Source: Neobacillus sp. SuZ13
GTDB taxonomy: Bacteria; Bacillota; Bacilli; Bacillales; Cytobacillaceae
DNA: 64,000 bases
Direction: 5' to 3'
Assembly: GCF_030123365.1 (NCBI RefSeq)
Contig: NZ_CP126107.1
Location: 1,535,501-1,599,500, forward strand
Position 1 is the first letter of the stretch. The number at the start of each line of letters is the position of its first letter. The notes beneath the pieces were generated by a model, which saw only the letters and a program-made list of their open reading frames with translations, was not told the DNA's origin and made no database searches. Both the position numbers and the translations under genes were made by a program. This document shows, piece by piece, positions 272-12,815 of the stretch.

Positions 272-320
272 ATATAAATATAAGCGGTTGATAATTGTGA
301 GAGCTATAAAAATTCATAAT

Positions 321-344
321 TTCTGCAAATTTTTGTTGTAGAAT
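321..344 (+). promoter_or_regulatory. TTTCTGCA-type promoter, site 1
   Basis: TTCTGCA at 321-327 lies exactly 18 nt (start to start) ahead of the -10 box TAGAAT at 339-344. There is no TTGACA-like -35; the element occupies its place, which suggests activator dependence. It is one of seven or eight sites with this geometry and lies 84 nt ahead of the CcdA/DsbD-like gene. Confidence 0.7.
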
Positions 345-428
345 ACCTTTTGAAATAAAATTTTAGTAGGAGGTAAATTTTTAAGTCAAGCTTTATCTAT
401 CAAATTTATATTGATTTAAGGTGGTTAA

Positions 429-1163
429 ATGTACAGTATATTAAGTCAATTTAGCTCATTTGTAAGCAAACCGTTTTCTAATATAGCCTATAGCCTAGAA
501 ACATGGCCAATAGTGTTTGCGTTTATTCTAGGACTTATTGGAGCTCTTGCACCTTGTCAGCTAACCGGTAATATTAGTGCTGTAACACTTTATGGTAACC
601 GTTCTATTCAAAAGAAAATCGCTTGGAAGGATGTTATCTTTTTCACTTTCGGTAAAATAGTAGCATTTTCTTTATTAGGTGTTTTGGTGTGGTTGCTCGG
701 AAGGGAATTTGAACAAAATCTTACTTTATATTTTCCTTGGCTTCGGAAGATAATGGGGCCTTTATTAGTTATAGTCGGGTTGTTTATGATGGGTTTTATC
801 AAATTAACAGGAACTTTAAATCTATTAAAAGGATTAAATGTATACAAGGGTGAAAATCCATTCGGATCTTTTATGTTAGGATTTAGTTTTTCACTAGCAT
901 TCTGTCCGACTATGTTTGTACTATTCTTTATGACCTTAATGCCTGTCGTATTGTCTAGTACTTATGGGTTTATTCTACCTCCAATATTTGCAATTGGAAC
1001 CGCAATTCCACTATTGATTTTTATTTTAATCATTTGGTTCCTCGGTGGTAGTGGGATGATAATGAAAAAAGGGAGAAAGTTTGGAATGGTGATACAAAGG
1101 TTTGCCGGGGTTTTGATGCTTCTCTTAGGGATTTTTGACACTTTAACTTATTGGTCTTTATAA
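429..1163 (+). CDS. CcdA/DsbD-like polytopic membrane protein
   Basis: This 244-residue protein has about six hydrophobic segments. Two conserved Cys sit in membrane helices: Cys43 in APCQLTGN and Cys159 in AFCPTMF. This matches the transmembrane thiol-transfer fold of CcdA/DsbD and the related DsbD_2/TauE-like proteins, which pass electrons or metal across the membrane. AGGTGG precedes the ATG by a few bases. The gene is monocistronic between promoter site 1 and a hairpin. Its place among copper genes with the same promoter element suggests a role in extracytoplasmic thiol or copper handling. The exact substrate cannot be read from sequence; a sulfite-exporter-like annotation is also possible. 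Confidence 0.75.
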
Positions 1164-1207
1164 CATGATACAAACAAAAACAATGAATGAATCATGTTGT
1201 TTTTTGT
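1162..1207 (+). terminator. Terminator after the CcdA/DsbD-like gene
   Basis: AACATGAT pairs with ATCATGTT across a 21-nt loop and is followed by GTTTTTT. The long loop makes it moderate in strength. Confidence 0.6.
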
Positions 1208-1480
1208 CATTAATAATTTCTAGGTTTTTGAATCTATCTGTTCCATCTCCAATAGATTGGAATTATTCAAAAGGATATTGGAATAGGATGAAGCCTGTAA
1301 ATACTTTATCTGTTGGCGATTTCGTCTATTACGAAACATATAAACCCGGTCCTTCGCATATGGGGATCTATGTAGGAAATGGTAAAATTCATTCATTCTA
1401 GTTCTTCCAGGGGAGTCGAAATTTCTGATAAGAAAAATTCTTACTGGAAATCTCGATATCTAGGAGCAATACAATTATAA
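1165..1480 (+). pseudogene. NlpC/P60 peptidase remnant, 5'-truncated and frameshifted
   Basis: The frame from about 1260 encodes an NlpC/P60 C-terminal half: [20 protein letters not shown], then [10 protein letters not shown]. It stops at 1401. Shifting by one base at about 1396 restores the rest (SSSRGVEISDKKNSYWKSRY, then LGAIQL) with a stop at 1480. The likely lesion is one extra T in the run after ATTCA. The upstream half, including the catalytic Cys segment, is missing. The intact NlpC/P60 protein at 29604-30815 aligns with it. It is a dead remnant. Confidence 0.8.
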
Positions 1481-1644
1481 CCTAACTTGTATTCTTTTAT
1501 GGTTGCATTTTTTTCTGAATAATTCTCGGATTTATAACCATTTCTGGAGAAACAGAGAGTTTTCCATTAAGAGGAATCTCCCTGTTTTTGGTGTTAACAC
1601 CTTTTATGTAAGAAAGTGTTTATTTTTCAAACAAAATCCATACT

Positions 1645-1668
1645 TTCTGCACATTTTTATAGTAGGAT
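1645..1668 (+). promoter_or_regulatory. TTTCTGCA-type promoter, site 2
   Basis: TTCTGCA at 1645-1651 precedes the -10 box TAGGAT (1663-1668) with the same 18-nt offset as site 1. The flanks are also alike (TTTCTGCACATTTTT here, TTTCTGCAAATTTTT at site 1). It lies 31 nt upstream of the YdhK-like start. Confidence 0.75.
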
Positions 1669-1699
1669 ATGTTTTGTAACAAATTTTAGGAGGGTTAAA

Positions 1700-2326
1700 A
1701 TGAAATCTAAAAAATTGTTGATTGGAATTGTTTCCTTGATATTAATGTTAATGTTAGCTGCTTGTTCTAACAATAATGATGATAAGAGCTCGGATAATTC
1801 TAATATGGATCATGGAAACATGAAGATGGATGATAAAAATTCAAATAAGGATGATTCGAATACAGATGATTCAAGTATGGACATGGGGGATATGGATCAT
1901 TCTGGTACAGGTGAAGTTCCTGAAGGATTAAAAGAAGCAAATAATCCCACCTATAAAGTAGGAACCAACGCCATTGTTCATTCAGAACACATGGAAGGTA
2001 TGAATGGTGCTAAGGCAACCATTGTAGGTGCATATGATACAGTAGTTTACGCGGTTACCTATACACCAACAACCGGGGGAGAACCGGTAAAAAATCATAA
2101 ATGGGTTATTCAAGAAGAAATTAAAGATGCGGGCACTAAAACCTTAGAACCTGGAACAAAAGTTACCTTAAATGCAGACCACATGGAAGGTATGATGGGG
2201 GCAACTGGAACAATTGATTCCGCAGAAAAAACAACGGTATACATGATTGATTACACTCCAACTAACGGAGGAGAAAAAGTAACAAATCATCAATGGGTAA
2301 CAGAAAGTGAACTATCTGCAAAATAA
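1700..2326 (+). CDS. YdhK-like lipoprotein with two DUF1541 repeats
   Basis: This is a 208-residue lipoprotein. The start is the ATG at 1700 after TAGGAGGG; a longer frame from 1616 lacks a ribosome site and would hide the signal peptide. The signal MKSKKLLIGIVSLILMLMLA is followed by a lipobox Cys (LAAC). Residues of about 25-80 form an Asp/His/Met-rich linker (NMDHGNMKMDD, SMDMGDMDH) typical of copper-binding surfaces. Two tandem repeats follow, each starting with HMEGM and ending in NHxWV, matching the YdhK/DUF1541 family. It is anchored outside the membrane and probably buffers or presents copper. It belongs to the TTTCTGCA promoter set. Confidence 0.85.
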   Translation: MKSKKLLIGIVSLILMLMLAACSNNNDDKSSDNSNMDHGNMKMDDKNSNKDDSNTDDSSMDMGDMDHSGTGEVPEGLKEANNPTYKVGTNAIVHSEHMEGMNGAKATIVGAYDTVVYAVTYTPTTGGEPVKNHKWVIQEEIKDAGTKTLEPGTKVTLNADHMEGMMGATGTIDSAEKTTVYMIDYTPTNGGEKVTNHQWVTESELSAK

Positions 2327-2348
2327 TATTAGAGGGTTTAAATATGAA

Positions 2349-2377
2349 GAGGGGTTGCAGTGCACCCCCTTTTTTCA
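2349..2377 (+). terminator. Terminator after the YdhK-like gene
   Basis: A GGGG...CCCC hairpin is followed by T6. Confidence 0.75.
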
Positions 2378-2534
2378 ATTCAAAAAAATGGTTTCCAAGC
2401 TAAGAAATTGTATTGATAATGACTGTAAGGTTATCCTTTTACTTTCTTAAATTATTCCAAAGCTTGTTCCATGTCTTACTTGACTCTCAAAAGAAAAGAG
2501 GAAAAACATTGCAAGGCAGTCCTAAATTATTAGA

Positions 2535-2882
2535 ATGGAGATGTCTAGATTGGAAACTACAAGTAATTATAAAAAATAATTAATTAATATTTTGATAGAA
2601 ATTAATCGCCTAGTAACAGAACATTTAAAAGTTCAAACAAGTGTTTTTAACCCTCCAGGTAGAAAAAGATTCATTTTCAAAAAAAATGATTACGAAAGCC
2701 TCTACGAAACGAACAAAAAAATACAAACTGAGTTATATCAAGTAATTAGTAAAATGCATAGGTTAAAAAAAGAATTAAATATCGATCCATTCATCTACCG
2801 GGGAATAAAAGATTATGCTCTTCTATTTCATGCCTCAAAAGGAAATACAATTCAAAGAATTGCTGTTCTACTTGCCCAATAA
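2535..2882 (+). pseudogene. Unidentified ORF interrupted by an in-frame stop
   Basis: From TTG at 2592 a 96-codon frame runs to 2882, but neither that TTG nor nearby codons have a ribosome site. The same frame continues upstream to ATG 2535 and is broken only by TAA at 2577-2579, so the original protein was perhaps 115 residues. The product is basic and helical (for example KMHRLKKELNIDPFIY) with no family I recognise. Alternatives are a short leader peptide plus a second ORF, or a functional ORF with a weak start. Confidence 0.45.
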
Positions 2883-3053
2883 ATAAGAATGGGTAAAGTT
2901 GTTATAAATAAAAACCTTTTTTTCCTAGTCTTTGTCAATACATCCTTTAATAGATCTATTTCATTGGATTTAGAGCTAATGAAACAACCTTCCTAGGTAG
3001 GATTCGAAAACACTAATCTATAGTTCTGTAGATTGTAATAATTTCTTGTTACT

Positions 3054-3077
3054 TTCTGCAAACTTGTTTACTACACT
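3054..3077 (+). promoter_or_regulatory. TTTCTGCA-type promoter, site 3
   Basis: TTCTGCA at 3054-3060 precedes the -10 box TACACT at 3072-3077 with the same 18-nt offset. A second near-copy, TTCTGTA at 3034-3040, lies 20 nt upstream, about two helical turns. Confidence 0.7.
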
Positions 3078-3131
3078 AAAAGTAGATAAAGGCGCTGTAT
3101 GATTTAATAGGGAATACTAAGGAGGATCCTT

Positions 3132-3299
3132 ATGTGCCAGAAACCCATGAAATTCACTCTCCACCAAATAGAGATGGAAAGAAAGGCAGCATTAGAAACT
3201 AAAAATCAACCACCAAACTTTTTAAGTAAGTTATTTAAAACATTAACTGTTAGCAATAAATCTAAAGTTTTGGTTAAAGGTGGAGTGAAAAATGATTAA
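3132..3299 (+). CDS. Small basic protein of unknown function, coupled to a Cys-rich membrane protein
   Basis: This 55-codon ORF starts at ATG 3132 after AGGAGG with good spacing. The product begins MCQKPMKFTLHQIEMERKAA and ends KGGVKND, is basic, and has no membrane segment. I recognise no family. Its stop overlaps the start of the next gene, so the two are translationally coupled. Promoter site 3 is 54 nt upstream, which puts the pair in the same putative regulon as the YdhK-like and Fe-S genes. The strong ribosome site and the coupling are the evidence that it is real. Confidence 0.65.
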   Translation: MCQKPMKFTLHQIEMERKAALETKNQPPNFLSKLFKTLTVSNKSKVLVKGGVKND

Positions 3300-3435
3300 T
3301 TGGCTTATTGGTATTGTTATATTTACAGTTGCTGGTTTAATCCTATTTAAAAATATTCAAAAATCCAAACAAGGGAAATGCCCTTCTTGCTCGTCGTATT
3401 GCTCTTGTAAGGGAGAAAATTGTCAATGCCATTAG
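3292..3435 (+). CDS. FeoB-associated-type Cys-rich membrane miniprotein
   Basis: This 47-residue protein starts at ATG 3292, overlapping the previous stop by 8 nt. Residues 3-20 form one membrane helix (WLIGIVIFTVAGLILFK). The cytosolic-type tail carries six Cys as CPSC, CSC and CQC. This is the layout of the FeoB-associated Cys-rich membrane proteins. No feoA or feoB gene is present in the window. Given its neighbours, metal capture (copper or iron) is the likely role; the metal is inferred. A strong terminator follows. Confidence 0.75.
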   Translation: MINWLIGIVIFTVAGLILFKNIQKSKQGKCPSCSSYCSCKGENCQCH

Positions 3436-3452
3436 TATTTAGAGAATAATCT

Positions 3453-3482
3453 AAAATCGTTTCCTGTGGGAAACGATTTTTA
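3453..3482 (+). terminator. Terminator
   Basis: AAAATCGTTTCC pairs with GGAAACGATTTT around a 4-base loop and ends in a T run. Confidence 0.9.
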
Positions 3483-3635
3483 ATGTAGTAGTTGGATAAT
3501 AGTATCTGTTTGTTCAAAGTGAACAATTATTATTTCATATCGAAAATTTAATTGAAGAGGGTCAAAATATTTGTCAAATGAATTAAACCTAAATGAAAGT
3601 TGACCAATTCGTGACAATAATGAATAATGCACAAT

Positions 3636-3659
3636 TTCTCAATATTTTTTTGATAGATT
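3636..3659 (+). promoter_or_regulatory. TTTCTGCA-type promoter, site 4 (variant TTTCTCAA)
   Basis: TTCTCAA at 3636-3642 precedes the -10 box TAGATT at 3654-3659 with the 18-nt offset kept. It lies 52 nt ahead of the BNR-repeat lipoprotein start. Confidence 0.6.
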
Positions 3660-3711
3660 AAACATATAAGCAATATAAATTTGTTTAATAAAGACTGTTT
3701 GAGGTGAAGTA

Positions 3712-4635
3712 ATGAAAAAGGCATTTGTATTATCAGTATTATCTTTGAGTTTAATTCTTTCCGCTTGTAGTTCAAAAGAGGAGTCCAAGGTTACATCAGT
3801 AAAAAGCGGGAAAAAAATTGAAGATATCCATGGGGTAGGTGTTTCTAACGATGGGACAACCTACATAGCAACTCATGAAGGACTTTTCTCAACAAACGGA
3901 GAATCTTGGAAGAAGGTGGGTTCTGCAAATGATGATTTTATGGGATTCCATTTGCGTTCAGATGGAACGATGATAACAAGTGGACACCCTGGTACAGACT
4001 CTGAATATCCGAACCCAATGGGAGTTTTAATCAGTAAAGATAAGGGGCTGCATTGGAAAGAGGTAGAGTATGTTGGTAAAATCGATTTCCATACTCTAAC
4101 AACATATCATCACGATCCAAACGTCATTTATGGTCTAAATGATATGGGTACCGGACAATATGGTGCTGGGATTTATAAAAGTTTAGACGGTGGGAAAAAA
4201 TGGGCTAAGGTAGAACCAAAAGGATTACCAAGTGATCTTATGAAAGTTCACTCCCTATTGGTTCTCCCAGAAGATAAAAATACCTTGCTGGCGGGAACTG
4301 AAAATGGAGTTATGGTATCAAAAGATGGTGGAGCAAATTGGGCAATTTTTGATGATACCCGTCTTATTACAGCCATGACACTCATGCCTAATGGAAAAGA
4401 CATTATTGCTTACTCCATGGACAATGTGACCAGAGGAGTTATGATTTCTCAAGATGGAGGGCAATCCTGGAAGAATATTGGTTTAGATCTTGATCAAGAT
4501 GCAGCCTCTTCCATATCAGTAAACCAAAAGGACGAAAAACAAATTGCTGTTTCCACATTTTCAACCTCTTTGTATGAAACAAAAGATGGCGGGGGAAATT
4601 GGGAGCAAATTATTAAATCTGGAAAATTAAAATAA
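3712..4635 (+). CDS. BNR-repeat lipoprotein (F510_1955-type glycosylhydrolase-like)
   Basis: This is a 307-residue protein with a lipoprotein signal (ILSAC, Cys near 20). It then has a beta-propeller made of Asp-box/BNR repeats: SKDKGLHW, SLDGGKKW, SKDGGANW, SQDGGQSW and TKDGGGNW. This matches the sialidase-like superfamily, in particular the Bacillus lipoproteins annotated as F510_1955-family glycosylhydrolases. No catalytic residues can be assigned, so enzymatic activity is uncertain; a metal- or ligand-binding propeller is equally possible. AGGTGAAG precedes the ATG. Promoter site 4 places it in the shared promoter set. Confidence 0.75.
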   Translation: MKKAFVLSVLSLSLILSACSSKEESKVTSVKSGKKIEDIHGVGVSNDGTTYIATHEGLFSTNGESWKKVGSANDDFMGFHLRSDGTMITSGHPGTDSEYPNPMGVLISKDKGLHWKEVEYVGKIDFHTLTTYHHDPNVIYGLNDMGTGQYGAGIYKSLDGGKKWAKVEPKGLPSDLMKVHSLLVLPEDKNTLLAGTENGVMVSKDGGANWAIFDDTRLITAMTLMPNGKDIIAYSMDNVTRGVMISQDGGQSWKNIGLDLDQDAASSISVNQKDEKQIAVSTFSTSLYETKDGGGNWEQIIKSGKLK

Positions 4636-4640
4636 CGATA

Positions 4641-4675
4641 AAAAAGCAGTGATCATCTTGATATCACTGCTTTTT
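4641..4675. terminator. Bidirectional terminator
   Basis: AAAAAGCAGTGAT pairs with ATCACTGCTTTTT. It serves both the lipoprotein gene (+) and the response regulator gene (-). Confidence 0.9.
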
Positions 4676-4689
4676 GAGTAAATAAAGGA

Positions 4690-5412
4690 TTAATTAAGGA
4701 AGATTTTATCATTAATAGATACTTTCGGATCTTTATTTACCCATTTATATCCAATGCCCCATACAGTAAAAAGGTGTCTATCTATAGGGAATCCTGCACT
4801 CCGTAACTTTTCTCGTAAATTCCTAATATGGGAATCAATAGTTCGATCATCTATCTGTGATTTAAGCCCCCATATTAATGACAATAAGTGATCACGGGAG
4901 TACACTTTTTGAGGATTTTTTATAAACAAACCAATTAAAGCAAATTCTTTTGGTGTAACAGAAATGACTTGGCCTTTATACTTCAATTCCATTGATTCTT
5001 CATTCCATTCTAGGCCATTGAAAACTAGAAAATGCTTGTCTTCTGTTGAAACCCTCGTTCTTCTGAGCAATGCCTCCATTCTGGCTAATAACTCCTCTTC
5101 ATTAAAAGGTTTGGTCACATAGTCATCAGCCCCAAATTTTAATCCCTTAATAACATCAGGCGTTTCACTCCTGGCAGTTAGCATAATAATGGGAACATCT
5201 GAAATTTCTCTTATTTTTTGGCAGGTTGTCCAACCATCCATCTCTGGCATCATTATATCAAGAATTACAAGGTCAACCTTTTCTTTTTCAAAATAAGTCA
5301 AAGCAGTTTTCCCTGAATCAGCCTTCTTGCATCTATAACCATGAGGGGATAAATATAGTCCTAAAAGGTCAAGCATTCGAGCTTCATCATCTACAAGTAG
5401 AATTGTCTTCAT
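4690..5412 (-). CDS. OmpR/PhoB-family response regulator, orphan
   Basis: This 240-residue protein has a receiver domain (1-115) with the acidic pair Asp8/Asp9, phospho-acceptor Asp52 in LVILDIMMPEMDGW, Thr79 in IIMLTAR and Lys101 in YVTKPF. The C-terminal winged-helix domain (about 130-225) includes SVTPKEFALIGLFIKNPQKV and DRTIDSHIRNLREKL. No histidine kinase is adjacent or elsewhere in the window, which is unusual because such genes are normally paired. It lies in the middle of the genes carrying the TTTCTGCA promoter element, and its own upstream region contains a near copy. OmpR-family activators bind next to or over the -35 region, which fits that element. Confidence 0.95.
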   Translation of the reverse strand: MKTILLVDDEARMLDLLGLYLSPHGYRCKKADSGKTALTYFEKEKVDLVILDIMMPEMDGWTTCQKIREISDVPIIMLTARSETPDVIKGLKFGADDYVTKPFNEEELLARMEALLRRTRVSTEDKHFLVFNGLEWNEESMELKYKGQVISVTPKEFALIGLFIKNPQKVYSRDHLLSLIWGLKSQIDDRTIDSHIRNLREKLRSAGFPIDRHLFTVWGIGYKWVNKDPKVSINDKIFLN

Positions 5413-5455
5413 ATATCCACCGCCTTAGCAAGGTTTATATCATTATCATAGAAGA

Positions 5456-5479
5456 AATTTATGAAGAAACTTTGCAGAT
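5456..5479 (-). promoter_or_regulatory. Possible TTTCTGCA-type site 8 upstream of the response regulator
   Basis: On the minus strand, ATCTGCAAA begins at 5479, and 18 nt further TAAATT (5461-5456) could be the -10. The first base deviates and the flanks fit less well than at the other sites, so autoregulation is only suggested. A Fur-box-like stretch (TATCATTATCATAG, 5438-5451 on the plus strand) follows closely. Confidence 0.35.
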
Positions 5480-5610
5480 TTAATATTTTTTCTGTACTTC
5501 TAAAAAAATCTACATATAAAAATGGGGGGGCTTCAAACTTTATTTCAATTTTGTGTCAAAATCGAGATATTTTTGCAAATGCCATATTTTATACAACAAA
5601 AAATCAAAGT

Positions 5611-5634
5611 TTCTGCACACTTTTTTATTAATGT
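5611..5634 (+). promoter_or_regulatory. TTTCTGCA-type promoter, site 5
   Basis: TTCTGCA at 5611-5617 precedes the -10 box TAATGT at 5629-5634 with the same 18-nt offset. It lies 55 nt upstream of the His/Met-rich protein start. Confidence 0.7.
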
Positions 5635-5689
5635 TTAAGTTGTTAAGCATTTATCGTACTCTACACATATTTGGAATGAGGTGAGGACT

Positions 5690-6067
5690 TTGAAGGGAAA
5701 ATGGTTGTTAATGATTATCCTTGTGGTTGTATTTTCAGGTGGAAGAATAGCTTTGGCAGATGGTGACCATAGTAAGGTTCCATCCACATCTAACCTTAAT
5801 GGACAATCGGAACATAATATGGAAGACATGAGCGAGGGAAAAAACTCAGACAGTCATGATACAGAAAGCACGAGTAATGATCATGATATGGAAGGAATGG
5901 ACATGGAAGGCAGTGGTGGCCATGGTCATGAGCCTGTCAAGGAAAAACCTGCAAACATGAAGGTTTTAGGAACTTTTGGTGCGGTCAATCTTTCCTTTAT
6001 AGTGATTGGCGTTTGGAATAAGTGGTTTAGAAGAAAGGATGTTTCCAATGGCAATTCCAAAAGATAA
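5690..6067 (+). CDS. His/Met-rich membrane-anchored protein, probable metal binder
   Basis: I take TTG 5690 as the start because GAGGTGAGG (5678-5686) sits just ahead; the in-frame GTG 5681 lies inside that ribosome site. The 125-residue product has an N-terminal hydrophobic segment (WLLMIILVVVFSGG). An extracytoplasmic loop follows, rich in His, Met and Asp (EHNMEDMSEG, NDHDMEGMDMEG, GGHGHE). A C-terminal membrane helix (LGTFGAVNLSFIVIGVWNKW) ends in a basic tail. The composition implies copper or other soft-metal binding. The stop overlaps the next ATG by 20 nt, so the pair is coupled and the two proteins probably act together. Confidence 0.7.
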   Translation: MKGKWLLMIILVVVFSGGRIALADGDHSKVPSTSNLNGQSEHNMEDMSEGKNSDSHDTESTSNDHDMEGMDMEGSGGHGHEPVKEKPANMKVLGTFGAVNLSFIVIGVWNKWFRRKDVSNGNSKR

Positions 6068-7433
6068 GTTATCTAAAGAGAAAAAACAAATGCAAGATAA
6101 GAAACCTTATAATCTATTATCAATACCAATTGTAAAAAAATTCATTCAAAGCAAATGGTATCCAGGGATTTTTCAATGGATTGTACTCGCTGTTTTTTCG
6201 ATAATTGTTTATGAATTGGTGGCGGGAACAGTTGATCCAACTCGAAATGTTGGAACGTCATTAACTTGGGTGTTATGGTGGCCATTAATTCCAATCTTTT
6301 TCTTAGTAATCGGTAGATTTTGGTGTGCGATTTGCCCCTTTGGTAAAGTAAGTGATATTATTCGGAAAACGATAGGCAGTAATCGTCCAATGCCAAAATT
6401 CTTAAGAAAGTATGGACTTTGGATGATTGACCTTTTCTTTATTGCCATTACCTACAGCGATCATATTTGGGGAATTGTTGAATCTCCGAGAGGTTCTGGT
6501 TATTTACTGCTTTTACTTGTAACAATGGTAATAGGAACATCGATTTTTTTCGAGAGAAGAACATTTTGTAAAACTCTATGTTTTCTAGGGGGACTTTCAG
6601 GAAACTATTCACGTTCTGGTTCATTAGAACTTCGAGGCACACCTGAAATATGTAAGACTTGTAAGACACAATCTTGCTTTAAAGGAAGCGAAAAAGCAGA
6701 AGGTTGCCCAATGTTTCAGTTTGTTAGAACGATGGATACTGCAGCTGATTGTAACTTATGTGGGGACTGTGTAAAAAACTGCCCAAATAACTCCATTCGA
6801 ATTTCACCACGGGTACCTACATCTGAACTATGGGTAATTAAAAAGCCAATGATTGAACATACATTCCTAGCAGCAGTCATTATGGGTATTGTTTTCGTTC
6901 AAAATATCACAATGGTAAATATTTGGCAGGACATTTTAAAAGCAATTGGTTCAGTAACAGGAACGGAAAATTATAATGTAAACTTTACTGTGGCCTTTAT
7001 TATTTCAATGGCTATCCCAGTTGCTCTCTTATATGGTACTGCAAAAATTGCTACGATAACTGGCGGATCTGTAGAGAAAGTTAAGAAAAACTTTATTCGG
7101 TTCGGTTATGCAATTATTCCACTGGATTTAGCAGGACACCTTGCTCATAACTTATTCCATATCATTACGGAAGGAAAAGCAATTTGGTACAACTCTGCTG
7201 CATTATTTGGTATGAATGTAACAAGGGGAGACCTTGCATTTGCACCTGCTTCCTCTGTTCAAATTTTACAGTACATCATTATTGTAATAGGAATGGTCGG
7301 CTCAATCTATACTGCCTATCGTATTGGTAATAAGGGCTCCTTTAAAGCATTGGCTCCATATTATGTATTAATGGTATTACTTGCAGTAGCTAATATTTAT
7401 CTATTCTCACTACCTATGATGCATCGAGTTTAA
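6048..7433 (+). CDS. NosR/NapH-like polytopic 4Fe-4S membrane protein
   Basis: This 461-residue protein starts at ATG 6048 (AGAAAGG nine bases before); a frame from 6006 lacks a ribosome site. About eight hydrophobic segments flank Cys clusters. FWCAICPFG (Cys93/96) and CKTLC (Cys174/178) are the Fer4_5-type CxxCP and CxxxC motifs of NosR, NapH and CcoG. Cys202, 205, 210 and 220 form one group, and Cys235, 238, 241 and 245 (CNLCGDCVKNC) form a classical 4Fe-4S ligand set. It presumably moves electrons across the membrane to a metal site or thiols outside. No nosZ or napA gene is in the window. Coupling to the His/Met-rich gene suggests reductive copper delivery or uptake, which is inference. 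Confidence 0.85.
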   Translation: MAIPKDKLSKEKKQMQDKKPYNLLSIPIVKKFIQSKWYPGIFQWIVLAVFSIIVYELVAGTVDPTRNVGTSLTWVLWWPLIPIFFLVIGRFWCAICPFGKVSDIIRKTIGSNRPMPKFLRKYGLWMIDLFFIAITYSDHIWGIVESPRGSGYLLLLLVTMVIGTSIFFERRTFCKTLCFLGGLSGNYSRSGSLELRGTPEICKTCKTQSCFKGSEKAEGCPMFQFVRTMDTAADCNLCGDCVKNCPNNSIRISPRVPTSELWVIKKPMIEHTFLAAVIMGIVFVQNITMVNIWQDILKAIGSVTGTENYNVNFTVAFIISMAIPVALLYGTAKIATITGGSVEKVKKNFIRFGYAIIPLDLAGHLAHNLFHIITEGKAIWYNSAALFGMNVTRGDLAFAPASSVQILQYIIIVIGMVGSIYTAYRIGNKGSFKALAPYYVLMVLLAVANIYLFSLPMMHRV

Positions 7434-7450
7434 TAAATTATCGAAATTTG

Positions 7451-7487
7451 AAAAAGACTAGATTCTTCAAAATCTTGTCTTTTTTTC
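7451..7487 (+). terminator. Terminator after the Fe-S membrane protein gene
   Basis: AAAAAGACTAGAT pairs with ATCTTGTCTTTTT, followed by T residues. Confidence 0.8.
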
Positions 7488-7651
7488 ATATTAATGAAAA
7501 TAAAGGAGCATTTATAGTAACTTTTACTAGTTCCCCATATTTGCTATATAAGCAAACATAAGAAGGCTGGTTTGAGTAAAAAAGCCCATTGGATTTTGAG
7601 ACATGGGATAAACAATTGACATATTTATAAAATAAAAGATAAATGCATAGT

Positions 7652-7675
7652 TTCTCCATATTTATTTGATAAAGT
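7652..7675 (+). promoter_or_regulatory. TTTCTGCA-type promoter, site 6 (variant TTTCTCCA)
   Basis: TTCTCCA at 7652-7658 precedes the -10 box TAAAGT at 7670-7675 with the 18-nt offset kept. The first substantial gene downstream is csoR, 168 nt away, so this would be a second, distal promoter of the copper operon or drive a very small transcript. Confidence 0.6.
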
Positions 7676-7792
7676 TAATAAGGTAAATCGATTGCATAAC
7701 TACTTTGAACAGCATTTATGTAATAAAAGCAAGAGACTTGTGGACATATTGTGAAGTCGTATAAAAATCTAAATAATTTTTAATAACGCCTA

Positions 7793-7822
7793 TTTACATA
7801 GGGTGGGGGGGTATGGTAAATT
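7793..7822 (+). promoter_or_regulatory. csoR promoter with overlapping CsoR-type operator
   Basis: TTTACA (7793-7798) and TAAATT (7817-7822) form a -35/-10 pair with an 18-bp spacer. The spacer is a G-rich tract framed by CATA and TATG (CATAGGGTGGGGGGGTATGG), as in CsoR operators. Copper-responsive autorepression is expected from the family. Confidence 0.65.
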
Positions 7823-7843
7823 AGATTTAAAGGAGGGGTGGTA

Positions 7844-8188
7844 ATGAATAATCACGATCCTGTTAACCTGAATCATTCTAATGAGCACTGTGATCCTTTA
7901 ACATCGGAGCGGAAAAGTCATCATTCAGATAAAACAAAACAAAATCTTATTTCAAGATTAAATCGTATTGAGGGACAGATTCGTGGTATTAAAGGTTTGA
8001 TTGATAAAGATACCTATTGTGATGATGTTATTACGCAAATTGCTGCAACCCAAGCAGCTCTAAATAGTGTGGCGAAAGTGCTATTGGAAGGCCATATGAA
8101 AAGCTGTGTGGTCGAAAGAATTCAAGAGGGTGACTATGAAGTTGTGGATGAATTGCTAACTACCATCCAAAGACTTATAAAAAAATAA
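7844..8188 (+). CDS. csoR: CsoR copper-sensing repressor
   Basis: This 114-residue protein starts at ATG 7844 (AGGAGGGG seven bases ahead). The all-helical CsoR/RcnR fold is recognisable from SRLNRIEGQIRGIKGLIDKD. The Cu(I) ligands of true CsoR are all present: Cys59 (DTYCDDV), His84 and Cys88 (EGHMKSC). The first 30 residues are His-rich (NNHDPVNLNHSNEHC, then SHHSDK), a common N-terminal extension in bacilli. It represses its own operon and copA until Cu(I) binds. It lies directly upstream of copZ with a 25-nt gap. Confidence 0.95.
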   Translation: MNNHDPVNLNHSNEHCDPLTSERKSHHSDKTKQNLISRLNRIEGQIRGIKGLIDKDTYCDDVITQIAATQAALNSVAKVLLEGHMKSCVVERIQEGDYEVVDELLTTIQRLIKK

Positions 8189-8213
8189 TTCATAAAAGAG
8201 AGGGAGTTTCAAA

Positions 8214-8420
8214 ATGGAAAAGGTAACATTAAATGTTCAAGGAATGTCTTGCGGTCATTGTGTAAAGGCTGTCGAAGGAAGTGTTGGTGCACTTAAGGGA
8301 ATCAGTTCCGTTAAAGTGGATTTAAAGGCTGCTAAAGTGGATGTTGAGTTTAATGACCAAGAGGTTTCATTAAATCAAATTAAAGAAACGATTGAAGATC
8401 AAGGATACGATGTGAAATAA
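8214..8420 (+). CDS. copZ: Copper chaperone CopZ
   Basis: This is a 68-residue single heavy-metal-associated (HMA) domain with the Cu-binding motif GMSCGHC near residues 10-16 and the usual beta-alpha-beta-beta-alpha-beta length. It delivers Cu(I) to CopA and CsoR in the cytoplasm. A good ribosome site (GAGAGGGAG) precedes ATG 8214. A hairpin terminator follows, so copZ and copA are not simply co-transcribed. Confidence 0.95.
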   Translation: MEKVTLNVQGMSCGHCVKAVEGSVGALKGISSVKVDLKAAKVDVEFNDQEVSLNQIKETIEDQGYDVK

Positions 8421-8427
8421 CATAGTT

Positions 8428-8460
8428 AAAAAGACGTGCTAGTCTCTAGCACGTTCTTTT
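8428..8460 (+). terminator. Terminator or attenuator between copZ and copA
   Basis: GACGTGCTAG pairs with CTAGCACGTT around TCT, followed by a T-rich tract (CTTTT). Confidence 0.75.
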
Positions 8461-8470
8461 CAAACAAAAA

Positions 8471-8489
8471 TATACCTATATGGGGTATA
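8471..8489 (+). promoter_or_regulatory. CsoR-type operator in front of copA
   Basis: The inverted repeat TATACC-N7-GGTATA with a GGGG core (TATACCTATATGGGGTATA) matches the CsoR operator pattern. It overlaps the base before the copA ribosome site, so copA probably has its own copper-controlled promoter just upstream. Confidence 0.7.
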
Positions 8490-8503
8490 AGGAGTTGGCT
8501 TTA

Positions 8504-10918
8504 ATGAGTCAAAATTTAAAAGAAACAAATTTACAAATCTCAGGTATGACCTGTGCAGCCTGTGCGATAAGAATTGAAAAGGATCTAAATAAGTTAGAAG
8601 GCGTGGAAACAGCCAATGTTAACCTTGCTCTAGAGCGTTCTAATGTTAAATATGATCCGGAAAAAGTAAATGTTGAAGACATTGAAAAAAAGATTAAAGA
8701 TCTGGGTTACGATGTTGTTAATGAGAAAACAGAATTGGACATAACCGGTATGACCTGTGCAGCCTGTGCTACCCGAATCGAAAAGGGTTTAAATAAATTA
8801 GACGGTGTCGTGAAAGCAAATGTGAATTTGGCACTTGAAAAAGCGACCGTGGAGTACAACAGTGCGGTCCTAAATCCAAGTGAAATTATTAAAAAGGTAG
8901 AAAACCTTGGTTATGGTGCTCAAATAAAGGATGATGCAAAAGAAACCAGTGACCACCGTCAAAAGGAAATTGAAAGACAAAAAGGGAAGTTTATCTTTTC
9001 TGCCATCCTTTCCTTCCCGCTTTTATGGGCAATGGTGGGTCACTTTTCGTTCACCTCATTTATTTGGGTCCCCAAAATTTTTATGAATCCATGGGTGCAA
9101 TTAGCTTTAGCTACCCCGGTACAATTTTACATTGGTAAACAATTTTATGTTGGGGCCTATAAAGCATTAAAAAATAAAAGCGCAAATATGGATGTTCTAG
9201 TGGCTTTAGGAACATCGGCAGCTTATTTTTACAGTTTATATTTATCATTAATGTCTATCGGAGGAATGAACCACTCCGTAGAACTTTACTATGAGACTAG
9301 TTCCATTCTTATTACGCTGATTATTCTTGGAAAGCTTTTTGAAGCAAAGGCTAAAGGAAGGTCATCAGAAGCGATAAAAAAACTGATGGGTCTCCAAGCA
9401 AAGACAGCGATTGTTGAAAGAGATGGAGTAGAACAAGAAATCCCCATTGAAGAAGTAATTGTTGGAGATATCGTTCATATTAAACCAGGTGACAAAATAC
9501 CGGTGGACGGAAAGATATTGGAAGGACGTTCCGCCATTGATGAATCGATGCTTACAGGAGAGAGTGTCCCAGTTGATAAGACCATCGGTGATGAGGTAAT
9601 CGGAGCTACAATCAATAAAAATGGTTTCTTATTGATTGAGGCCACAAAAGTGGGCAGAGATACAGCCTTAGCCCAAATTATTAAGGTAGTAGAAGAAGCA
9701 CAGGGGTCAAAGGCACCTATTCAACGTCTAGCTGATAAGATTTCAGGTGTGTTTGTTCCTATTGTAGTTGCCCTTGCCGTCCTAACATTTATTGTTTGGT
9801 ATGTTTGGGTGGAGCCTGGCAATTTTGCAGAAGCATTAGAAAAACTGATTGCCGTTTTAGTTATCGCTTGTCCTTGTGCATTAGGTCTAGCAACGCCAAC
9901 ATCTATCATGGCTGGGTCAGGTCGTGCAGCGGAATATGGCATTCTGTTTAAGGGTGGCGAGCATTTGGAAATGACCCATAAAATTTCTAGCGTTGTATTA
10001 GATAAAACTGGTACCGTAACAAATGGAACACCTGTTTTAACAGATGTAATAACTGTCCAGACTCAAATAGAGGATGAATTTTTATCATTAGTGGGTTCTG
10101 CCGAAAAACAATCTGAACATCCACTAGCTCAAGCCATTGTTCAAGGGATTAAAGATAAAGAGATTCCATTAAAGGATGTAACAGAGTTTGAAGCGATTCC
10201 TGGATTTGGTATTAAAGCAACTGTTGATGGAAAAGAACTATTAGTTGGTACGAGGAAATTAATGAGTAAATTCAATGTAGCTGCAGAAGAGGCTTACGGT
10301 CAAATGGATGAGTTAGAAAAGGTCGGTAAAACAGCAATGCTGGTTGCTATTGACTCTCAATATGCTGGTATGGTTGCAGTAGCTGATACTATCAAAGAAA
10401 CGTCCAAATCAGCTATAGGTCGCCTCAAAAATATGGGAATCGAAGTAATCATGATTACGGGGGATAATAAACAGACTGCAAGAGCTATAGCTGCACAAGT
10501 TGGTATTGATAATGTTATTGCGGAAGTTCTTCCTGAAGGAAAAGCGGATGAAATAAAGAAATTGCAGGCAGAAGGGAAGAAGGTAGCAATGGTTGGTGAT
10601 GGAATCAACGATGCGCCAGCCCTTGCCATTGCAGATATCGGAATGGCTATAGGAACTGGTACCGATGTTGCAATGGAAGCAGCTGATATCACGCTTATTC
10701 GTGGGGATTTAAATAGTATCGCAGATGCAATCTTCATGAGTAAGAAGACAATCAGTAATATTAAGCAGAATTTGTTCTGGGCCCTTGCCTATAATACTCT
10801 TGGTATTCCTGTTTCTGCACTTGGATTTCTGGCGCCTTGGCTAGCAGGTGCAGCAATGGCATTCAGTTCAGTATCTGTTGTTCTCAATGCGTTACGTTTA
10901 CAAAAAGTAAAATTGTAG
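8504..10918 (+). CDS. copA: Copper-exporting P1B-type ATPase CopA
   Basis: The start is ATG 8504 after AAGGAG; the in-frame ATG at 8480 lies inside the operator. The 804-residue protein has two N-terminal HMA domains (Cys17/20 and Cys85/88, both GMTCAAC). Eight membrane segments carry the Cu(I) motif CPC (Cys456-Pro-Cys458). The phosphorylation motif is DKTGT (Asp500), the P1B signature is SEHPLA, and MVGDGINDAPALA is the hinge motif. It pumps Cu(I) out of the cytoplasm. Repression by CsoR is inferred from the operator directly upstream. Confidence 0.97.
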   Translation: MSQNLKETNLQISGMTCAACAIRIEKDLNKLEGVETANVNLALERSNVKYDPEKVNVEDIEKKIKDLGYDVVNEKTELDITGMTCAACATRIEKGLNKLDGVVKANVNLALEKATVEYNSAVLNPSEIIKKVENLGYGAQIKDDAKETSDHRQKEIERQKGKFIFSAILSFPLLWAMVGHFSFTSFIWVPKIFMNPWVQLALATPVQFYIGKQFYVGAYKALKNKSANMDVLVALGTSAAYFYSLYLSLMSIGGMNHSVELYYETSSILITLIILGKLFEAKAKGRSSEAIKKLMGLQAKTAIVERDGVEQEIPIEEVIVGDIVHIKPGDKIPVDGKILEGRSAIDESMLTGESVPVDKTIGDEVIGATINKNGFLLIEATKVGRDTALAQIIKVVEEAQGSKAPIQRLADKISGVFVPIVVALAVLTFIVWYVWVEPGNFAEALEKLIAVLVIACPCALGLATPTSIMAGSGRAAEYGILFKGGEHLEMTHKISSVVLDKTGTVTNGTPVLTDVITVQTQIEDEFLSLVGSAEKQSEHPLAQAIVQGIKDKEIPLKDVTEFEAIPGFGIKATVDGKELLVGTRKLMSKFNVAAEEAYGQMDELEKVGKTAMLVAIDSQYAGMVAVADTIKETSKSAIGRLKNMGIEVIMITGDNKQTARAIAAQVGIDNVIAEVLPEGKADEIKKLQAEGKKVAMVGDGINDAPALAIADIGMAIGTGTDVAMEAADITLIRGDLNSIADAIFMSKKTISNIKQNLFWALAYNTLGIPVSALGFLAPWLAGAAMAFSSVSVVLNALRLQKVKL

Positions 10919-10929
10919 AGGTGAGCATA

Positions 10930-11058
10930 ATGTGGAAAAAGTGGGCACTTTCAGCGATAGCTTATTTATTAATAGTAATGGTTGGTTATGGAATCTATGT
11001 ATCAGTAGTAGGATCGGATACGAATCCATCTCATCAAATGGATGTAAAAGGTGATTAA
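10930..11058 (+). CDS. Small single-span membrane protein downstream of copA
   Basis: This 42-residue ORF starts at ATG 10930 with GAGGTGAG five bases ahead, 11 nt after copA. It has one membrane helix (KWALSAIAYLLIVMVGYGIY) and a short outside tail containing His and Met (NPSHQMDVKGD). No named family is recognised. Its position and tail suggest an accessory to copper export; this is inference. Confidence 0.6.
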   Translation: MWKKWALSAIAYLLIVMVGYGIYVSVVGSDTNPSHQMDVKGD

Positions 11059-11169
11059 TCATATAAGGAAATAAGTGAACTATTAATGACAATTGTATCC
11101 TTCGTTATCAATCTTCATAGAAAATGCAAGTATATTTTATAAGATGGAAAAAAGGAAGGAGTGATTGTT

Positions 11170-11361
11170 ATGGAATGGTTATTATACTTGTTCGTTTTAC
11201 TTTATCCGTTTGTGATGATTATTTGTATGAAAGCAAATAATCATCATAAAGATATAGTTTCTCCAGCGGAGATAGAGAAAAAATTAAAGTTTATTCAAGA
11301 GGAAAATAATATGCTTCGTGATGAAGTTGATTTTCTTTCAGAATTGGTAAAATTAAAGTGA
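11170..11361 (+). CDS. Small membrane protein with coiled-coil tail
   Basis: This 63-residue product starts at ATG 11170 after AAGGAAGGAG. Residues 2-20 form a membrane helix (WLLYLFVLLYPFVMIICMK), followed by KANNHHKD and a heptad-like helix (EIEKKLKFIQEENNMLRDEV). No family is recognised. It sits between copA and a decayed gene and is followed by a good terminator. Confidence 0.6.
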   Translation: MEWLLYLFVLLYPFVMIICMKANNHHKDIVSPAEIEKKLKFIQEENNMLRDEVDFLSELVKLK

Positions 11362-11366
11362 TTGTT

Positions 11367-11399
11367 AAAGCCGTTATCCTTGAGGTTACGGCTTTTTTT
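11367..11399 (+). terminator. Terminator
   Basis: AAAGCCGT pairs with ACGGCTTT around a 13-base loop, then T7. Confidence 0.85.
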
Positions 11400-11419
11400 A
11401 ATTAAAAAGTACGTAATAA

Positions 11420-11863
11420 ATAGTTGCAGTAATAATTTTAGGATTCGTTGGGTTTTATCTAACTAATTTTTTCCTAGATGGAAGTAAGACAAAGGAAAGC
11501 TCCACCTCTGTGAAAGTACAACAAAGTATTTCAAATAAAATGAGTACCGAACAAACAAATGCAAAGGAAATGGAGAGTGAATGGACGAAAATTAATTCTG
11601 AAGGAGCCGTGGAGGTAAAAGCTACCCTAGTTCCAGAAAAAAGCAGCAACAGTCAGCTTGTATTCGAAGTGATAATGAACACTCATTCTGTTAATCTTAG
11701 TCAATATGACTTTACTAAACTAGCTGCAATTTCTTTTGGAACGAATAAAATTATTTCAGGAACTTTTAAATGGGATTCATCGAGTGATGAGAGTAGCCAC
11801 CATGTGATGGGGTTCTTGGTCTGGAACGGCGATTTTAAAAATAACTACAAAAATAACTTTTAA
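11420..11863 (+). pseudogene. Secreted or membrane-anchored protein gene with lost 5' end
   Basis: The frame is open from 11420 to 11863. It first reads a membrane anchor (IVAVIILGFVGFYLTNFFLD) and then a soluble domain ending HHVMGFLVWNGDFKN. No ATG, GTG or TTG precedes the anchor: TAA lies at 11417-11419, and the terminator of the previous gene is directly upstream. GTG 11510 is available but would discard the anchor and lacks a ribosome site. A one- or two-base deletion near AAATAG (11418-11423) would restore a start-like context (AAAAAGTACGTAATA). The domain family is unknown to me. Confidence 0.5.
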
Positions 11864-12207
11864 TAATCCTTTTCGAATGGTCCTAAAAGCTTTCAATCGA
11901 TCATTACTTTGTAAAAGCCATGTGTGATACACGGATTATTGGTCAGTTTTATACAATTCTATTAATGACTTCATGTTTGTTTCTTCCCTTCTAATATTTC
12001 ATCTAGGGTAGTACACCAACCTATTATAGGATTTTTAAGATTAGGAGGATATGACAAAGTTCATACAAAATAGAATAGAAAGTTAGCAATTGAATGTAAA
12101 AAAGGTCTGGTAGGTATACCAAACCATTAGAAAAAATATAGTTGACAATCATTTCTTATTTTACGATGTTTCGAAACACTAATTTATCTGCTATAGTCAC
12201 GCCATTT
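11864..12207. other. Intergenic region without recognisable gene
   Basis: This is about 340 bp of AT-rich sequence between convergent units. I see no coding frame with a ribosome site. A TTGACA at 12142 has no well-spaced -10 partner, and a short GTTTCGAAAC palindrome occurs near 12169. Confidence 0.4.
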
Positions 12208-12465
12208 TTAAAAACTATTCATCATATTATCACTTTCCATTTCCTTTCCTTTTGTATCACCCATCATCCCATCATTTTTATGACAAGCTTTGTACATGTT
12301 TTTTAATTCAGCCTTGGAAGAATCAGGATGCATCTTTTGCATAAACGGTAACATTTTTTCAAAGCTTACACCATTACCAGAGTGGCCGTTTCCAGATGCA
12401 AATACAGCAGTGCCAGCTCCTAGAATAAAAGTTGCACTTAGAATTCCAACAACAAACTTTTTCAT
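12208..12465 (-). CDS. Small secreted His/Met-containing protein
   Basis: The start is ATG 12465 after AAAGGAG; the longer frame to 12492 would include the ribosome site. The 85-residue product has a signal peptide (FVVGILSATFILGAGTAVFA, cut after SxxxA-type FAS) and a mature region with SGNGHSGNG, MLPFMQKMHPD, a CHK motif and a Met-rich end (KNDGMMGDTKGKEMESDNMM). No named family is recognised. Composition and the promoter directly upstream (site 7, the best match to site 1) suggest an extracellular metal-binding role. Confidence 0.7.
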   Translation of the reverse strand: MKKFVVGILSATFILGAGTAVFASGNGHSGNGVSFEKMLPFMQKMHPDSSKAELKNMYKACHKNDGMMGDTKGKEMESDNMMNSF

Positions 12466-12496
12466 TATTTTACAACTCCTTTCTTTTATCACCTTT

Positions 12497-12520
12497 ATCC
12501 TAAAACAAAAATTTGCAGAA
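12497..12520 (-). promoter_or_regulatory. TTTCTGCA-type promoter, site 7 (minus strand)
   Basis: On the minus strand, TTCTGCA (12520-12514) precedes the -10 box TAGGAT (12502-12497) with the 18-nt offset kept. The core TTCTGCAAATTTTTGTT is identical to site 1 over 17 bases. It lies 31 nt ahead of the small secreted protein start. Confidence 0.75.
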
Positions 12521-12815
12521 ATAAGGGAGATTTGGTGTTGATCTTATGAAGATTTTTATTAGACAATGAATTTATTCCTAATGGCTATTTAATAGAGGTT
12601 TATTGTTTTAATAAAATATTAGCGGTAAGGATGATAATGTGTAACAAATTCCTCAATTACTGAGAAAGTTCAACAATTAGTCACAAGTTGGACTGATATA
12701 GATATTGTTATTACCTCTATTTATCATTATCATAGTATCGATAGTAGAAACTATTTTGCATAAAGCTATAATTTATTAATTACAACAACGATTTTGATGA
12801 TAAGGGTGTGAGGGT
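12521..12815. other. Divergent intergenic region upstream of the CopC-CopD gene
   Basis: No gene is seen. It contains a Fur-box-like TATCATTATCATAG (12723-12736) and TATAAT (12768-12773), the likely -10 for the CopC-CopD gene, with a poor -35 at about 12745. Confidence 0.4.

Follow-up and report, generated by a model that had tools for sequence, protein, structure and literature searches.

An 11-bp direct-repeat promoter element in a copper-linked gene cluster of Neobacillus sp. SuZ13 and its likely two-component regulator

Introduction

Which regulator reads a promoter element that recurs eight times within 12 kb, ahead of genes for copper handling and for poorly understood envelope proteins? 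The locus that raises this question lies in a 64,000-nt stretch of the Neobacillus sp. SuZ13 genome (GCF_030123365.1, contig NZ_CP126107.1, positions 1,535,501 to 1,599,500), hereafter the window, and window positions are counted from its first letter. An initial annotation had described seven sites, and perhaps a weaker eighth, in which a single TTTCTGCA stands at a fixed distance from a -10 box, and had proposed a new promoter family, bound by an activator at the -35 position and serving a coordinated regulon of extracytoplasmic copper or thiol-handling genes. Here, we show that what had been described as a single TTTCTGCA is part of an 11-bp direct repeat. Very probably it serves a copper-linked two-component system of the LcoRS/CopRS kind as promoter box, and the response regulator (RR) encoded in the window is the likely regulator. 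The initial annotation overlooked the gene for this probable activator, which sits within the cluster and has a site in its promoter.

Results and discussion

Structure and geometry of the element

The element comprises two 11-bp direct repeats, approximately CTCCATAnTTT and CTGCACAnTTT, followed by TANNNT. From other genomes of the genus we collected 29 sites, all non-redundant and selected solely by the strict pattern TTTCTGCA-N-A-N-TTT-N5-TANNNT. TCCATA is conserved in these sites at positions -7 to -2, which played no part in the selection (C at -5 has a frequency of 0.88), and forms a second half-site exactly 11 bp upstream of CTGCA. Fainter recurrences of C occur at -16 (0.50) and -27 (0.40), and the promoter of a DUF6803 gene carries a further repeat, forming the array TTTCTCCATAA/TTTCTCCTAAG/TTTCTGCACAC. 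The distance to the -10 was assessed on 157 non-redundant, non-training sites picked with a matrix truncated ahead of the -10, so that the -10 itself took no part in their selection. In 107 of them TANNNT begins at an offset of exactly 19 nt from the first T of TTTCTGCA; at the remaining offsets from 8 to 35 it is found in at most 16 sites, except for 37 at offset 8, which lies within the box itself. The conservation of unselected positions and these offset counts establish both the fixed -10 distance and the direct repeat.

By analogy, the geometry is of the PhoB type, in which a response regulator would replace the -35. A dedicated alternative sigma factor of the extracytoplasmic function (ECF) type, reading TTTCTGCA as its -35, would likewise account for the fixed -10 distance and for the absence of TTGACA, none of which was seen at normal spacing in the eight sites of the window (by eye, unscored). 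We considered this explanation and rejected it as highly improbable, since the -10 boxes are sigma-A-like TANNNT at a fixed distance rather than the non-sigma-A -10 of an ECF promoter, a second half-site lies 11 bp upstream, and the DUF6803 promoter has yet another repeat; an 11-bp tandem array fits a response regulator and not a sigma -35.

Sites in the window

All seven sites of the initial annotation, with their -10 boxes, are present at the positions it listed, and the regular expression TTTCT[GC][CA]A-N11-TANNNT returned eight matches in the 64 kb, namely these seven and one at 50216 (minus strand). For scoring, the main matrix covered 36 bp and was trained on 27 sites, all from other genomes of the genus and none from SuZ13; two of the 29 strict sites had been excluded as chance or doubtful, one (L040) inside phoU and the other (L041) with no gene nearby. 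On the plus strand, box and -10 occupy 309-344 (TAGAAT; 39.7 bits) upstream of a DsbD_2/CcdA-like gene at 429-1163, 1633-1668 (TAGGAT; 40.3 bits) upstream of a DUF1541 lipoprotein gene of the CopL/YdhK type, and 3042-3077 (TACACT; 22.9 bits) upstream of a 55-aa open reading frame (ORF) at 3132 and a Cys-rich ORF at 3292. Further plus-strand sites stand at 3624-3659 (TAGATT; 22.0 bits) before an F510_1955-family gene, at 5599-5634 (TAATGT; 35.9 bits) before the genes at 5681 and 6048, and at 7640-7675 (TAAAGT; 27.0 bits; weakly conserved) before csoR-copZ-copA, while the minus-strand site at 12497-12532 (TAGGAT; 38.4 bits) precedes a small protein gene at 12208-12465 (minus). Measured from the end of the -10 to the start codon, the gaps are 85, 32, 55, 53, 47 (to the GTG at 5681), 169 (to csoR) and 32 nt in this order, in agreement with those of the initial annotation.

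The weak eighth site, which had been placed at 5479 (minus), proved genuine, but its register was 11 bp off. The CTGCA at 5479 (minus) is the upstream half-site, and the canonical TTTCTTCA begins at 5469 (minus), with a -10 box, TATGAT, that ends at 5445 (minus), 33 nt ahead of the ATG of the response regulator gene. This site (5445-5480, minus; 26.2 bits) lies in the regulator's own promoter.

Overall, the matrix scan of the window ranked these eight sites as the top eight, at 22.0-40.3 bits against 10.9 for the next hit and at most 10.6 for the reversed-sequence control, with the caveat that the training set includes orthologues of window sites. Genome-wide, pattern searches were controlled with the reversed counterpart of each pattern. 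Across the 6.09-Mb single-contig genome, the strict pattern gave six matches against none for its reverse, and the extended two-half-site pattern TNCATANTTTCTGCANANTTTTNNNNTANNNT, with at most three mismatches, gave ten against two. Of these ten, seven are the listed sites, and the others are in the RR promoter (window 5445-5476, minus), at 4388689-4388720 before DUF6803-PCYCGC, and at 4021905. We excluded 4021905 from the regulon because it belongs to another repeat class (TTCATA), and took a strict-scan match at 4827291 (L006) as chance, as it has at least two mismatches to the refined pattern and is absent from the extended scan.

In 61 genomes of the genus, allowing at most two mismatches, we found 110 matches, including 17 that belong to the TTCATA class, against nine for the reversed pattern. 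Chance agreement among AT-rich promoter sequences might be suspected in a window of 37% G+C with a T-rich box. Yet the counts of ten against two genome-wide and 110 against nine in the genus, and of 105 against none at 16 bits in the named loci described below, make this explanation negligible, and the view of the initial annotation that chance was very unlikely is borne out by the whole-genome and matrix counts.

The TTCATA class deserves separate mention. The match at 4021905 (L194, G000:C1:4021905-4021936, minus) and L256 show an 11-bp repeat, TTCATA/TTCACA-CTTTA-TTCATA...TAGAAT, that is related to the present element but differs from it. Behind it lies a 44-aa ORF that is conserved in two genomes (MTKNQLTELVNKLKKAGIKASLTKPKSNYLLSLQKIKNYPSSVN in SuZ13) and adjoins an SCO1-like gene (by eye) on the opposite strand. 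The form TTCATA-[GA]TTTG-TTCATA-[TC]TTTT-N4-5-T[TA]... (L254, L255, L258) occurs in 14 of the 61 genomes, with or without the regulator considered here. Perhaps this class is the box of another response regulator.

Genes behind the element across the genus

Outside SuZ13, the genus search yielded 104 of the 110 matches. We typed 78 of these and dropped four of the TTCATA class, leaving 74 of the TCTGCA/TCTTCA class; the 26 untyped matches comprise 13 of the TTCATA class, 12 that are sequence-identical to typed ones elsewhere, and one that overlaps a typed one. The next same-strand gene belongs to one of nine cluster families in 61 of the 74, with a gap from the -10 of 5-55 nt in 60 (commonest 30-45 nt) and of 161 nt in one. 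The initial annotation had proposed a genome scan for the element upstream of genes versus inside them as its own check, and this result leaves its proposal standing. The families are DUF1541 (27), DUF6803 (9), 5681-type (6), CcdA-like (6), 12208-type (5) and kinase (5) genes, with RR, F510_1955-type (F510) and CopZ genes once each. Five more of the 74 precede multicopper-oxidase-, Cys-rich- or lipoprotein-like genes (recognized by eye, apart from the L099 oxidase, which was identified by Pfam), and in eight the gene is distant, unlabelled or missing. Four matches overlap antisense ORFs (46, 46, 102 and 160 aa), of which only the 160-aa one (G050) is gene-like in length.

Conservation was examined in orthologous upstream regions with the main matrix at a threshold of 18 bits; the reversed control gave no site in any class even at 12 bits. 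As far as we saw, the RR, F510, 3132-ORF, CcdA-like and kinase promoters had contributed no training sites, and a site is present in 9 of 10, 2 of 2, 5 of 5 (orthologues at E 1e-8; 5 of 6 at a looser limit), 11 of 21 and 5 of 9 of their upstream regions, respectively. The figures for DUF6803 (13/13), DUF1541 (35/64), 5681-type (7/8) and 12208-type (12/14) genes are partly circular, because those promoters did supply training sites. At the same threshold, sites were found upstream of csoR in 0 of 11 cases (best 15.6 bits), copZ in 1 of 14, copA in 0 of 9, Fer4_5 in 0 of 12, PCYCGC in 1 of 10, CopCD in 0 of 4 and YcnI in 0 of 1. The csoR-operon site is the least conserved of the window sites among relatives.

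These counts bear on whether CsoR or another cytoplasmic copper regulator uses the box as its operator, as the presence of csoR within the cluster, with one box ahead of it, might suggest. We considered this and judged it scarcely credible: csoR upstream regions rarely carry the box (0/11), and the Staphylococcus aureus CsoR sites ATACCtataGGGGGTAC and ATACCctggGTGGGTAT (PMC5947656) are unlike this direct repeat. In a by-eye comparison with those published sites, the box does not have the form of an ATACC-N4-GGGGGTA-type CsoR site.

Response regulator and kinase

The window RR (4690-5412, minus) is an OmpR/PhoB-family protein of the LcoR type with Response_reg and Trans_reg_C domains, and we propose it as the regulator. 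SuZ13 encodes a paralogue, RRb (G000:C1:4500000-4500686), that is 58% identical to it, and a sole close kinase (G000:C1:4999276-5000643), which has the HAMP-HisKA-HATPase build and outer sensor domain of a partner kinase. Both RR genes adjoin an F510_1955-type gene; at L091 (2994-4690), RRb is paired with such a gene, and neither a kinase nor a box accompanies the two. In many relatives a kinase gene of 454-493 aa adjoins the RR gene, and around the two lie genes for CopA, CopZ, CsoR, DUF1541 proteins, multicopper oxidases or four-helix copper proteins.

Close relatives were defined by cut-offs of at least 290 bits for the RR and at least 450 bits for the kinase, set where the scores visibly drop (from 294 to 217 and from 450 to 321, respectively). 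With these, the 31 of the 61 genomes that have a close RR relative are also those with a close kinase relative, even where the two genes are unlinked. The TCTGCA/TCTTCA-class motif is present in 30 of the 31 genomes with the RR and in 4 of the 30 without it (Fisher P = 5.6e-12, for related genomes and with no kinship correction). The recognition-helix segment RT[IV]DSH[IV][RK]N is found in 11 of 11 family sequences and is absent from two other SuZ13 RRs, and two His residues of the kinase outer domain (G[NE]xH and TxxH) are kept in 17 of 17 family kinases.

Several observations weigh against the window RR and this kinase as the pair behind the element. The kinase gene is not next to the RR gene but 3.46 Mb away (0.5 Mb from RRb), although in LcoRS/CopRS systems such adjacency is usual rather than essential. 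The co-occurrence is less strict when defined otherwise: at plain E-value limits RR and kinase are each found in 36 of 61 genomes, with 35 in common, and a simpler pattern detects the motif in 24 of 31 genomes with the RR and 4 of 30 without. Four genomes (G005, G013, G046, which is 94% complete, and G049) have the motif without a close RR, and one (G052) has a close RR without the motif. A renewed search of G005 at a loose limit found no RR relative better than E 2.5e-49 and 43% identity, and since this genome has the motif, another regulator may read the box. One unrelated SuZ13 kinase shares the His in the second of the two columns. Furthermore, no site was found at 18 bits upstream of RRb (0/11) or of its F510-type neighbour, F510b (0/14), where a box would be expected; along with the low csoR, copZ, copA, Fer4_5, PCYCGC, CopCD and YcnI counts, this either speaks against the proposal or is what operon-internal genes would show. 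Finally, 24 of the 80 named loci examined below have no match at 14 bits.

Some of these points fit a different assignment, in which an OmpR/PhoB-type RR does bind the box but the main one in this genome is another paralogue (RRb, or an RR more distantly related), the window RR only sharing or modulating the site. RR and RRb have nearly the same recognition helix; in 18 of the 31 genomes with an RR, the motif is accompanied by no RR closer than 58-65% identity; and the four genomes just named carry it without a close RR. The window RR, however, lies inside the cluster, and its promoter has a site in 9 of 10 orthologues compared with 0 of 11 for RRb, so that we regard this assignment as possible but doubtful and retain the window RR as the likely regulator.

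Before the SuZ13 kinase gene, at 3771 in L195, weak tandem half-sites (CTTCACAAATT, CACCACAAGTT, CTTCATAACAT and CTTCAAT) lie at 3472-3530, about 240 nt ahead of the gene. They score 14.9 bits and recur with small changes in G007 and G057; we do not claim them as a site.

The element beyond the genus and on copper plasmids

We also scanned the closest 80 RR-relative loci among the matches listed (the named loci, 1.53 Mb in all). They hold 130 matches at 14 bits against one for the reversed control, and 105 against none at 16 bits, in Cytobacillus, Peribacillus, Anoxybacillus, Parageobacillus, Lysinibacillus, Oceanobacillus, relatives of Planococcus, Macrococcoides and other genera. The frequent lack of a match in Planococcus-type loci may reflect a drifted box. 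Downstream genes of the 130 matches, tallied with a matrix variant that also took in the phoU-internal site L040, encode DUF1541 proteins (28), kinases (26), CopA (7), RR (6), RRb (3), CcdA-like (4), 5681-type (4), 12208-type (4) and F510-type (4) proteins, CopZ (1) and other products (28), with no gene in 15 cases; 70 of the 130 precede DUF1541, kinase, CopA or RR/RRb genes.

The Lactococcus plasmid pNZ712 (KX138409) carries lcoRSABC and has been shown to confer copper resistance (PMC5152845). Its RR is homologous to that of the window, with 52% identity over 93%. The 13.7-kb lco region contains a single match (19.3 bits; control 12.1), CTGCACA-AGTT-CTGCAAA...TATAAT, which stands between the lcoRS-like genes and the operon that follows them (lcoABC) and ends 118 nt before the first gene following the RR-kinase pair. 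One site (29.3 bits) likewise follows the RR-kinase pair of an L. sakei plasmid, and a Priestia plasmid has sites before the kinase (28.2 bits) and multicopper oxidase (23.7 bits) genes and a weak one before YdhK. The same operator is found before target genes of LcoRS/CopRS-type loci, and LcoR may bind it. A paper in Gene from 1999 reportedly, going by its title, deals with a two-component system in copper-inducible transcription. We found no description of the operator in the literature searched, and the original lco papers (Gene 1999 and 2002) might contain one.

Proposed mechanism and implications

Together, these results lend support to two ideas of the initial annotation, an activator at the -35 position and a coordinated regulon of extracytoplasmic copper or thiol genes, and suggest a course of events. 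The membrane kinase (4999276-5000643) probably senses extracytoplasmic copper, which would be the signal, and would phosphorylate the window RR (4690-5412) and perhaps also RRb; we infer that the unlinked kinase serves both. A phosphorylated RR dimer would then bind the two head-to-tail half-sites 11 bp apart (CTCCATA-nTTT-CTGCACA) in the -35 place and activate transcription by recruiting sigma-A RNA polymerase to the TANNNT -10, nine nt past the second half-site. The RR gene would be under its own control, and the predicted regulon would comprise the eight promoters within 12 kb, including that of the regulator itself, as well as DUF6803-PCYCGC (4388689-4388720).

It looks as if this regulon joins poorly understood copper- and thiol-handling genes and occurs in many Gram-positive bacteria. 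With somewhat less than even confidence, we suggest that it may be a Bacilli-wide regulon for extracytoplasmic copper and thiols that had not been mapped before, in which the DUF6803, PCYCGC/CYCXC and F510_1955 proteins, the His-rich protein with its Fe-S partner and the 85-aa protein would form one copper-handling system with the CopL- and CcdA-like proteins, and in which a single unlinked kinase would drive two RRs in Neobacillus. The proposal provides a testable regulon with a defined operator and a candidate regulator and kinase, and it links families of unknown function to copper by their promoters, beyond mere neighbourhood. As the box occurs in Bacillaceae, Planococcaceae, Staphylococcaceae and on Lactobacillales plasmids, it offers a quick route to extracytoplasmic copper genes.

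Genes of the cluster

The CcdA-like gene (429-1163, plus) encodes a DsbD_2 transmembrane protein (PF13386, 81.1 bits; NF040495, the ArsG family, at 137, is below its cut-off of 200). Past the first site, window 309-375 contains AGTAGGAGG with no start codon behind it, which resembles the DUF1541 promoter of G038; the CcdA-like gene of G038 (L239) has no box of its own. The first site is possibly the promoter of a lost DUF1541 gene that now drives the CcdA-like gene. Between the first two sites, 1165-1480 holds the remnant of a broken NlpC/P60-like gene (labelled by eye). Four plus-strand genes follow, encoding the DUF1541 lipoprotein (1700-2326; CopL/YdhK-type by domain match), the conserved 55-aa ORF MCQKPMKF... 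(3132-3299), a 47-aa ORF, MINWLIG...CPSCSSYCSCKGENCQCH, with a Cys-rich C terminus (3292-3435; by eye, with a similar ORF in L199), and an F510_1955-family BNR-repeat protein that is probably a lipoprotein (3712-4635; NF045728, 224.7 bits, cut-off 175).

Beyond the RR gene, the plus strand encodes a His/Met-rich small membrane protein (5681-6067), for which family searches gave no match, and a membrane Fe-S protein (6048-7433; Fer4_5, weakly NapH-like below the cut-off). Next come CsoR (7844-8188; PF02583), a CopZ-like chaperone (8214-8420) and a CopA-type P-type ATPase (8504-10918), the latter two recognized by eye from their ORFs. Directly ahead of csoR, at 7795-7816, lies TACATAGGGTGGGGGGGTATGG; because it resembles a CsoR-type operator, csoR-copZ-copA may have two promoters, one repressor-controlled and one activator-controlled. 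The 85-aa product of 12208-12465 (minus) is probably secreted and had no match in family searches.

Comparison with known systems

In PhoB pho box and Bacillus PhoP box promoters, direct half-sites spaced by 11 bp replace the -35 and stand about 9-10 bp from the -10. The present element resembles these in half-site period, -35 place and -10 distance, and differs in half-site sequence and gene set. Of the claim to a new promoter family, the repeated element holds, whereas its kind, a response-regulator box replacing the -35, was already known; in the literature searched we found neither the operator itself nor a regulon of this breadth.

Among copper two-component systems, CopRS of Corynebacterium glutamicum also uses a direct repeat of 11-bp period, TGAAGATTT-nn-TGAAGATTT, but of another sequence and at only one site, which occupies -266 to -285 instead of the -35 position (PMC3140484). 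CopRS of Listeria monocytogenes, linked to the copper-induced lit genes, is likewise a copper two-component system and is located on mobile elements (PMC12345273). In the copXL genes of S. aureus, CopL is a lipoprotein with tandem DUF1541 domains, like the 1700-2326 product; there the genes are CsoR-repressed (PMC5947656), whereas here the DUF1541 gene stands behind an RR box. A close likeness is also seen in LcoRS/lcoABC of Lactococcus lactis (pND306, pNZ712), which has a kinase of the same build and a CTGCACA-N4-CTGCAAA repeat with TATAAT ahead of the genes after lcoRS. Where that system is one plasmid locus, the one described here is a chromosomal multi-promoter regulon with two RRs and an unlinked kinase; on the features tested, it is a member of the LcoRS/CopRS kind whose kinase gene happens to be unlinked.

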